A DNA stretch of 36,460 bases from positions 1 to 36,460 of the forward strand of contig JAFMKE010000007.1 in assembly GCA_017853115.1 (NCBI GenBank), written 5' to 3'. The DNA is from Verrucomicrobiota bacterium. GTDB lineage: Bacteria > Bacteroidota > Bacteroidia > Chitinophagales > UBA8649. The notes beneath the pieces were generated by a model. That model did not search any database and was not told where the DNA came from. It saw only the letters and a program-made list of their open reading frames with translations. Positions 20,156-22,728 of this stretch are shown piece after piece; the stretch's first letter is position 1, and every line of letters starts with the position of its first letter. The translations under genes and the position numbers were made by a program.

Positions 20156-20611
20156 TTACCAACGATTCTTTAAGCGGTCCAATTCGCGGCTGGTATCTTT
20201 CTGCTTGATGCTGTCTCTTTTGTCAAAACTCTTTTTCCCTTTAGCAACGGCTATGTCAAGTTTCGCAAAACCGCGCTCGGAAAGAAACAAGCGGATGGGA
20301 ATCACGGTCAATCCTTTTTCAGTGATTTTTCGGGTAATCTGCTTCAGTTCGGATTTTTTCAATAGCAGCTTCCGTGGTTGATTGGGTAGGTGATTATAAT
20401 GTGTACCAAAAGTATATTCCGCAATATGCATGTTTACGACATAAAGTTCATCCTTACGCAACTGACAAAAAGCTTCGTTGATATGCGCTTTAGCAGCGCG
20501 AATTGCTTTGATTTCCGTGCCGGTCAACCGAATGCCGGCAGTGTATCGCTGTAGTAACTCGTAATCGAAGCTTGCACGCTTATTTTTTATGTTGACAGGT
20601 ACTTGTTTCAC
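20156..20611 (-). CDS. smpB: SsrA-binding protein SmpB
   Basis: A 151-residue basic RNA-binding protein that pairs with tmRNA to rescue stalled ribosomes. The SmpB fold is recognised from NKRASFDYELL at the start, GIRLTGTEIKAIR, LPNQPRKLLLKKSEL and the basic C-terminal tail ending RLKNRW, which in the family inserts into the mRNA channel. The start is GTG at 20611, because an in-frame stop lies 9 nt upstream and no ATG is available. A TAACTTTA hexamer-like -7 (minus strand, 20616-20623) sits directly before it, so the leader may be very short. The ssrA tmRNA gene is not visible in this window. Confidence 0.96.
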   Translation of the reverse strand: MKQVPVNIKNKRASFDYELLQRYTAGIRLTGTEIKAIRAAKAHINEAFCQLRKDELYVVNMHIAEYTFGTHYNHLPNQPRKLLLKKSELKQITRKITEKGLTVIPIRLFLSERGFAKLDIAVAKGKKSFDKRDSIKQKDTSRELDRLKNRW

Positions 20612-20886
20612 GAAGTAAAGTTAGCAAAAACTTCATCTTCAAAGCCATACTGATCTTGGCATGTGGTGGGAATTTACGGTCATAAAGATGAATGATTCGA
20701 ACTGGCTGTTACCTCGCGAGTGCGAAAATTATCCCATAGATCTGAATAGTCAGCCTCCAATGTTAATAAGGAGGGTGTGGAAATTAATACTATGAAAATC
20801 AATTGATTACGATTTTATTTCTAGGCTTGACTTGTACTTTATTCACAGGAATACACATCATTATCAACAAAACAATAGCTTGAATG

Positions 20887-20935
20887 TGGGAAAATATTGG
20901 TGGTAAAAAATGGAGAAATGTGGGAAAATGTGTCA
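20887..20935 (+). promoter_or_regulatory. Putative MraZ operator: phased TGG repeats
   Basis: TGGTA (20901), TGGAG (20911) and TGGGA (20921) follow each other at exactly 10-nt steps, with a weaker TGTCA at 20931 and an additional TGGGA at 20887. MraZ in E. coli binds TGGGN direct repeats with 5-nt spacers, that is a 10-nt period, just upstream of its own gene. The 11-nt word TGTGGGAAAAT occurs twice (20885-20895 and 20919-20929). Location, unit and period all fit autoregulation by the downstream mraZ. Confidence 0.72.
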
Positions 20936-20943
20936 AAAGTGTA

Positions 20944-20951
20944 TACTTTTA
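20944..20951 (+). promoter_or_regulatory. Candidate -7 element of the dcw cluster promoter
   Basis: TACTTTTA fits TAnnTTTG in all but the last position and lies 30 nt before the mraZ ATG. The expected -33 region falls on the TGGGA repeat around 20920, so MraZ binding there would block polymerase. Confidence 0.45.
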
Positions 20952-20981
20952 TGACTGTTTTAAAATCGTAGTGGATAACTC

Positions 20982-21456: not shown

Positions 21457-22365
21457 ATGAACGATAACAGCTATCATATCTCCGTTCTTTTGCAAGAGTG
21501 CGTTGATGCCTTGCATATTAAACCCAATGGCAACTATGTGGATTTGACCTTCGGCGGTGGTGGACACTCGCGCGCGATTTTGGAAGCGATGGACGGTGGG
21601 ATGTTGTATTCTTTTGATCAAGATGAAGATGCCCTTGCTAATCGGATGGATAATCCTTCGTTCACTTTTGTCGGACACAACTTTAGGTTTCTTAAACGTT
21701 TTTTACGCTATTATCATGCAATTCCAGTTGATGGAATTATGGCTGATTTAGGTATTAGTTCTTACCAAATTGATGCAGGAAGTAAGGGTTTCTCAACAAG
21801 GTTTGATGGTCCTATGGATATGCGTATGAATCAAGAGGCTGAGTTGAAAGCAAGTGACATTTTACATACTTATAGTGAGGAAGATCTTGTGCATATTTTT
21901 TCTTCCTATGGCGAGGTAAGGAATGCTAAAACCCTAGCTGCAGCTATTGTGCAAGCAAGAAACAGTGGTGTGCGTTTCGAAAGTACGCAAGCCTTTGTGG
22001 CATTCTTGGATGCCTTTGTGATGGGAGGAAATCCAAATAAATACTATGCTCAAGTTTTTCAAGCGCTTAGGATTGAAGTGAACGATGAATTGAATGCTCT
22101 GAAGGAAATGCTGGAGCAAAGTTATGAGGTTCTCCGAAAAGGTGGGCGTCTGGCAGTTATTACATTTCACTCTCTGGAAGATCGTTTGGTTAAAAACTTT
22201 TTTAAGACAGGAAATTTCGAAGGTGAACGAAAGAGCGATGAGTTTGGTCGGGTGAAGAAATATTTCAAACTGATTAATAAAAAGCCAATTGAGGCTAGTG
22301 ATGAAGAATTGAAAATGAATCCACGTTCCCGGAGTGCAAAATTGAGAATAGCTGAAAAAGTATAA
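21457..22365 (+). CDS. rsmH: 16S rRNA (cytosine(1402)-N(4))-methyltransferase RsmH (MraW)
   Basis: A 302-residue SAM-dependent methyltransferase that N4-methylates C1402 of 16S rRNA in the decoding centre. The opening HISVLLQECVDAL, the SAM-binding DLTFGGGGHS (29-38), ADLGISSYQID, GFSTRFDGPMDMRM and the late AVITFHSLEDRLVKNFF are all canonical. Conserved second gene of dcw clusters. Its stop codon directly abuts the next ATG (TAAATG), implying coupled translation with ftsL. Confidence 0.97.
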   Translation: MNDNSYHISVLLQECVDALHIKPNGNYVDLTFGGGGHSRAILEAMDGGMLYSFDQDEDALANRMDNPSFTFVGHNFRFLKRFLRYYHAIPVDGIMADLGISSYQIDAGSKGFSTRFDGPMDMRMNQEAELKASDILHTYSEEDLVHIFSSYGEVRNAKTLAAAIVQARNSGVRFESTQAFVAFLDAFVMGGNPNKYYAQVFQALRIEVNDELNALKEMLEQSYEVLRKGGRLAVITFHSLEDRLVKNFFKTGNFEGERKSDEFGRVKKYFKLINKKPIEASDEELKMNPRSRSAKLRIAEKV

Positions 22366-22728
22366 ATGCCAGAGGAAAAAGAAGATATAGGGTTGGTGGA
22401 AAATCAGATTTCTCTTGAGGAGCGAGTGAAGAATATCCTTCGCTTCGATGAGAAAAACTGGTTTAACAATTTGCCTTTGGTCCTGTTCATCGCGATGCTC
22501 GGTGTGTTGCATGTGGCAAACAATCATACGGCAGAAAATAAAATACGCCAGATGAACCAGCTTGAGCAGGATATCAAAGAATTGCGATGGACCTACATGA
22601 CAGCAAAGTCCGAGTTAATGTACAAGAGTAAGCAGAGTGAAGTGGCAAAAATGGTCGAAGAAATGGGTTTAAAGGAGTTGACTGCTCCACCCTACAAAAT
22701 AGTTGTAAAGCAAGACGACTATGAATAA
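22366..22728 (+). CDS. ftsL: FtsL-like division protein
   Basis: A 120-residue bitopic protein with a charged cytoplasmic N-terminus (1-35), one transmembrane helix (about 36-51, LPLVLFIAMLGVLHVA) and a periplasmic coiled-coil-like helix (about 55-105). Sequence similarity to proteobacterial FtsL is slight; the call rests on topology, size and position between rsmH and the septal PBP, where Bacteroidota encode FtsL. In the family it forms a complex with the FtsQ-type protein and activates FtsWI. It begins right at the rsmH stop and overlaps ftsI by 8 nt. Confidence 0.82.
   Translation: MPEEKEDIGLVENQISLEERVKNILRFDEKNWFNNLPLVLFIAMLGVLHVANNHTAENKIRQMNQLEQDIKELRWTYMTAKSELMYKSKQSEVAKMVEEMGLKELTAPPYKIVVKQDDYE

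Follow-up and report, generated by a model that had tools for sequence, protein, structure and literature searches.

A putative MraZ operator of four phased 10-bp units ahead of the mraZ-headed division gene cluster in a Bacteroidota genome

What does the operator of MraZ look like in the Bacteroidota, and where does it lie relative to the promoter? MraZ is among the most widespread transcription regulators in bacteria. The described sites that we found in the open-access literature are from proteobacteria, mollicutes and B. subtilis, and a paper on a Bacteroidota MraZ operator was not found there. The question is raised by a 36,460-nt stretch of a Bacteroidota genome (the window), in which an initial annotation had pointed to phased TGG repeats upstream of mraZ as a possible MraZ operator of this phylum.

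The repeats lie in the 370-nt intergenic region between smpB and mraZ, at the head of the dcw cluster (Table 1). Downstream of the ftsL-like gene the remaining cluster continues through ftsZ, as judged from the reading frames. The MraZ encoded in the window also matches solved MraZ structures. The DxxxR loops with which MraZ contacts DNA are both kept, as DAKGR and DGADR (DSKGR and DGAGR in E. coli), and the DxKGR loop is kept in about 180 of the 189 MraZ proteins of relatives. The array stands directly 5' of mraZ, with 42 nt from the end of the last unit to the start codon, and the order read at the site is TGTGGGAAAATATTG, GTGGTAAAAA, ATGGAGAAAT, GTGGGAAAAT, GTGTCAAAAG and TGTA-TACTTTTA.

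Table 1. Features of the smpB-mraZ region; units, -7 box and second element are predictions.
Feature	Position	Strand	Remarks
smpB	20156-20611	minus	left border of the intergenic region 20612-20981
TGTGGGAAAAT, probable degenerate copy of the second conserved element	20885-20895	plus	59 nt upstream of the TA of the -7 box
MraZ-box unit 1, GTGGTAAAAA	20900-20909	plus	predicted -56 to -47; 29.4-bit matrix match begins here
MraZ-box unit 2, ATGGAGAAAT	20910-20919	plus	degenerate: first base A for G (ATGG, not GTGG)
MraZ-box unit 3, GTGGGAAAAT	20920-20929	plus	
MraZ-box unit 4, GTGTCAAAAG	20930-20939	plus	GTGT type; register 20910 scores 25.0 bits
-7 box, TACTTTTA	20944-20951	plus	TAnnTTTG consensus, 5 of 6 fixed positions; 14 nt after the start of unit 4
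mraZ, 156 aa	20982-21452	plus	PF02381 (2.2e-29); TIGR00242 above cut-off
rsmH (mraW)	21457-22365	plus	second gene of the dcw cluster
ftsL-like gene	22366-22728	plus	by position and a weak match, below the family cut-off

The words on which the proposal was based are all in place (TGGTA at 20901, TGGAG at 20911, TGGGA at 20921, TGTCA at 20931, TGGGA at 20887 and TACTTTTA), and TGTGGGAAAAT does occur exactly twice in the window, at 20885 and 20919. The exact 10-nt period stands as well, but the number of units had to be raised from three to four (starts at 20900, 20910, 20920 and 20930), of which three carry a GTG(G/T) core and one ATGG: TGTCA, taken for a flank, belongs to an in-phase fourth unit. 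The TGGGA at 20887 had likewise been read as a flank of the array; this copy, whose distance to the next GTGG is 14 nt, does not keep the phase and occupies the place of a different element described below, which makes it unlikely to be a fifth MraZ unit. The two irregular units have counterparts in relatives: ATGGAG, as in unit 2, is found in L007 and ATGGTG in L008, and GTGTC last units followed by TACTTTTG are found in L035, L038 and L043. A unit of the GTGT type is permitted by the mollicute MraZ consensus AAAGTGK (PMC5282649).

Three TGG words at exact 10-nt spacing are expected about 0.26 times in the whole window and were present in 22 of 100 shuffles; the words alone are therefore not striking at that scale. 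Within the 370-nt intergenic region, a run of at least three was obtained in 59 of 20,000 dinucleotide shuffles. We took mraZ upstream regions from the family, order, class and phylum of the window, added two named MAG records ('Saprospirales bacterium' and 'Chitinophaga pinensis'), and, of 181 regions in all, kept the 173 that had sufficient length and differed from one another in their last 100 nt. TGG pairs at spacings of 10, 20 and 30 nt numbered 245, 123 and 48, where shuffles gave 11.1, 11.1 and 9.8; other spacings showed no peak of this kind. The 10-nt pair was present in 143 of the 173 regions, against a shuffle mean of 10.4 (maximum 18), regional counts that are not independent events because the compared genomes, which span dozens of families, are related. 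The phased units that the initial annotation had expected upstream of mraZ in relatives are thus strongly conserved (245 pairs against 11), although it had sought the relatives among the Flavobacteriales; the nearest named ones are the Saprospirales and Chitinophaga MAGs of the window's own order.

A 34-column matrix, iterated from mraZ upstream regions without the window and its family, reads GTGG(G/T)AAAAA GTGG(T/G)AAAA(T/A) GTGKnAAAAA, and its information is mostly in the GTG cores, at about 1.2-2.3 bits per position versus 0.2-0.7 for the A positions. At 20900 the window site reaches 29.4 bits, compared with a median of 30 for the training regions. Among unrelated sites on both strands of the window the best has 7.6 bits, and the top score in 60 whole-window shuffles was 18.3 bits. 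A chance origin of the array was rejected on this comparison and on the 10-nt TGG pairs in relatives. Since its score equals the median of the relatives, the site is not unusually degenerate, as it had at first appeared to be by comparison with E. coli. A calibrated operator profile made from 40 class members returned this site as the only match at E<=10 in a search of the 2.07-Mb genome (E 0.024), and hence no further MraZ targets there; in relatives, its top-ranking matches are largely mraZ upstream regions.

The array was also followed in genomes of the phylum that have rsmH and no MraZ match over the family cut-off, the orientation of the locus being set by tblastn. In all ten of them (eight of one family, G273, G303, G329, G343, G347, G355, G376 and G384, plus G426 and G253) the array is absent from the 1.4 kb upstream of rsmH, with best scores of at most -1.4 bits. 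These ten genomes are near-complete. By contrast, three genomes of one family with a divergent MraZ carry the array (29.5, 17.7 and 21.6 bits). Both the conservation of the array and its absence where MraZ is absent support the proposed reading as a Bacteroidota MraZ operator.

The position of the array relative to the promoter is conserved in the class. Of the 116 array-bearing class members, 79 have a TAnnTTTG box (5 or more of 6 positions matched) that starts 10-19 nt past the beginning of the last unit, and in 74 of these the distance is 14-16 nt; shuffled flanks give 16.5 boxes at 10-19 nt (maximum 30). When the number of units is allowed for, 92 of 96 class members have the box at a phase of 4, 5 or 6 (mod 10) relative to the units, and the 14-nt distance in the window conforms exactly. 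In the promoter map of F. psychrophilum the -7 box occupies -12 to -5 (PMC9723704); mraZ transcription is on this basis predicted to start near 20956, with the array at -56 to -17 and a leader of about 26 nt. A -33 box, TTTG, was not found at this promoter, and GTGG units sit at that place in the class, so that the array does cover the -33 region of the candidate -7 box, as had been noted from the window alone. A -33 motif was likewise not identified in F. johnsoniae, as cited in PMC7366714. The downstream layout of the E. coli/Burkholderia type, which is common to those described cases but does not define the operator, was not found in the window and its class, where the array is upstream of the -7 box. 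Members of the phylum's other classes have TTGAC ahead of the first unit in 35 of 48 cases, with 2.0 expected. The distance is mostly 28-30 or 37-40 nt, and the array there thus follows the -10 box. Within the phylum the operator has therefore switched from one side of the promoter core to the other, and we infer that the switch roughly coincides with the boundary at which the TAnnTTTG promoter type comes in. In f21, a family of the window's order (L046, L052, L054, L064, L066, L084, L087 and L097), the middle unit is GTGTTATTTTG, so that a -7-like box appears inside the array; TTTG lies 25 nt upstream of this box in 7 of 18.

We consider 20900-20939 very probably to be an MraZ operator heading the mraZ-rsmH-ftsL...ftsZ cluster, at which bound MraZ would exclude the polymerase. 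The operator would consist of four 10-bp direct repeats of the form GTG(G/T)nAAAAn. Being one helical turn apart, the units would present the same face to successive MraZ subunits, and as the GTG cores would share one face of the helix, one MraZ ring could contact three or four successive units. In the species studied MraZ forms rings and acts as a repressor, and the octameric ring is cited for mollicutes in PMC7761207. Since the array fills about -56 to -17, just upstream of TACTTTTA, MraZ bound there would deny RNA polymerase access to the -33/spacer DNA. The sequence does not itself give the sign of regulation. We infer binding by MraZ, and repression rather than activation by analogy with E. 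coli and mycoplasmas, where MraZ represses its own operon (PMC8475190).

Could MraZ on the array instead activate, replacing the -33 element and recruiting or positioning RNA polymerase? An array that precedes the -7 box at a constant helical phase would suit an activator, as would the GTGG units in the place of a TTTG at -33. We nevertheless regard activation as improbable, given the repressor role of MraZ in both systems in which its effect on its own operon is cited above, and given that the array overlaps the footprint of the polymerase and in some relatives the -7 box as well (GTGTTATTTTG), an arrangement more in keeping with a blocker. The period might also reflect phased A-tracts that bend the DNA and aid the promoter, the GTG cores being read by no regulator. 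AAAA runs do recur at 10 nt directly upstream of the -7 box, but most of the information is in the GTG cores, the array lies downstream of the -10 box in other classes, where upstream bending cannot act, and it is lost where MraZ is lost; we give this explanation very little credence. Use of the array by another direct-repeat regulator, with the MraZ target elsewhere, has a precedent in the mollicute HsdC, which reads similar GTG repeats with a period differing by 1 nt (PMC5282649), but is scarcely credible for an array that accompanies mraZ in most genomes of the phylum examined, repeats at exactly the MraZ period and is missing from the rsmH locus where a genome has no MraZ.

Taken alone, the window site, read as an MraZ operator, is an ordinary member of a known operator kind. 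The E. coli operator, which we read in NC_000913 as GTGGGAAATT, GTGGGGCAAA and GTGGGAATAA, shares with it direct units of the GTGGG type, the exact 10-nt period and the position directly before mraZ. In E. coli, however, the boxes come after the -10 box (TAAACT) and extend over the transcription start, whereas the window units precede the -7 box, and in place of GTGGG the window has G or T at the fifth base, A-rich tails, one ATGG and one GTGTC unit. The mollicute site, (AAAGTGKN3)3, is alike in its 10-nt period, its GTG(G/T) core, which explains the GTGT units in the window and its relatives, and its A-rich character (PMC5282649, PMC8475190). It differs in that the window has four units without a strict AAA before each core, and belongs to another phylum and promoter type. 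In Burkholderia cenocepacia, four 7-nt repeats with 3-nt spacers, that is, a 10-nt period, are found at the dcw promoter, and a fragment with these repeats was bound by MraZ in EMSA (PMC7761207). These repeats follow the -10 box and span the transcription start (PMC7761207), while the window array is upstream of the -7 box.

The relatives revealed a second conserved element. Exact copies of TGTGGAWAA are carried by 34 of the 116 class members, where shuffles give 0.27. They lie mostly on one strand and some 16, 26 or 37 nt ahead of the first MraZ unit; carriers upstream of mraZ include L014, L023, L035, L064 and L108. In 14 of 19 cases the element is 59-61 nt away from the -7 box irrespective of how many MraZ units there are, and this constancy indicates that it is anchored to the promoter. 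As a general part of promoters in the order it was rejected: in a genome-wide comparison, TGTGGAWAA about 60 nt before TAnnTTTG was only weakly above the reversed control, with the excess mostly in one family. TGTGGAWAA is the exact reverse complement of the DnaA box TTWTCCACA, and in the window TGTGGGAAAAT at 20885 is probably a degenerate copy of it rather than an MraZ unit. DnaA is a candidate reader of the element, which resembles the DnaA box (TTATCCACA; TTWTNCACA). The likeness is exact in the relatives, whereas in the window the 9-mer TTWTNCACA is not found at 20885-20893, where the copy, TGTGGGAAA, is a single site off by one position. Binding of DnaA to the ftsL promoter region is known from B. 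subtilis (PMC8203912, PMC11019786). Further DnaA-box-like words in the same intergenic region are TTATTCACA (20839-20847, plus strand), TTATCAACA (20861-20869, plus strand) and GTGGATAA (20971-20978, minus strand), the last adjoining the mraZ start codon.

Some relatives have a further MraZ-type array on the opposite strand. A minus-strand GTGG pair at 10 nt was found in 32 of 164 regions (about 0.4 expected), 70-310 nt upstream of the forward array, in carriers that include L030, L032, L033, L035, L036, L040, L051, L059 and L189-L194; no such second array was found in the window. In family f4 the opposite-strand array stands ahead of an ArsC-like gene that has a -7 box of its own. The divergent genes differ between families, however, and for this reason a dedicated divergent target of the inverted array was rejected.

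Our data yield a phylum-wide operator consensus, GTG(G/T)nAAAAn at 10 nt. For specialists, the interest would lie in the class-wide layout and in the promoter-anchored second element. It is tempting to speculate, and we put this forward tentatively, as possible rather than likely, that the dcw promoter of Bacteroidia may be a composite switch, in which the upstream MraZ array (-56 to -17) is combined with a DnaA site about 72 nt upstream of the transcription start. A promoter-anchored element resembling the DnaA box makes a possible link between replication initiation and transcription of the division genes in Bacteroidota directly testable. If the composite switch is real, MraZ and the replication initiator would jointly set the transcription of the division and cell-wall cluster.
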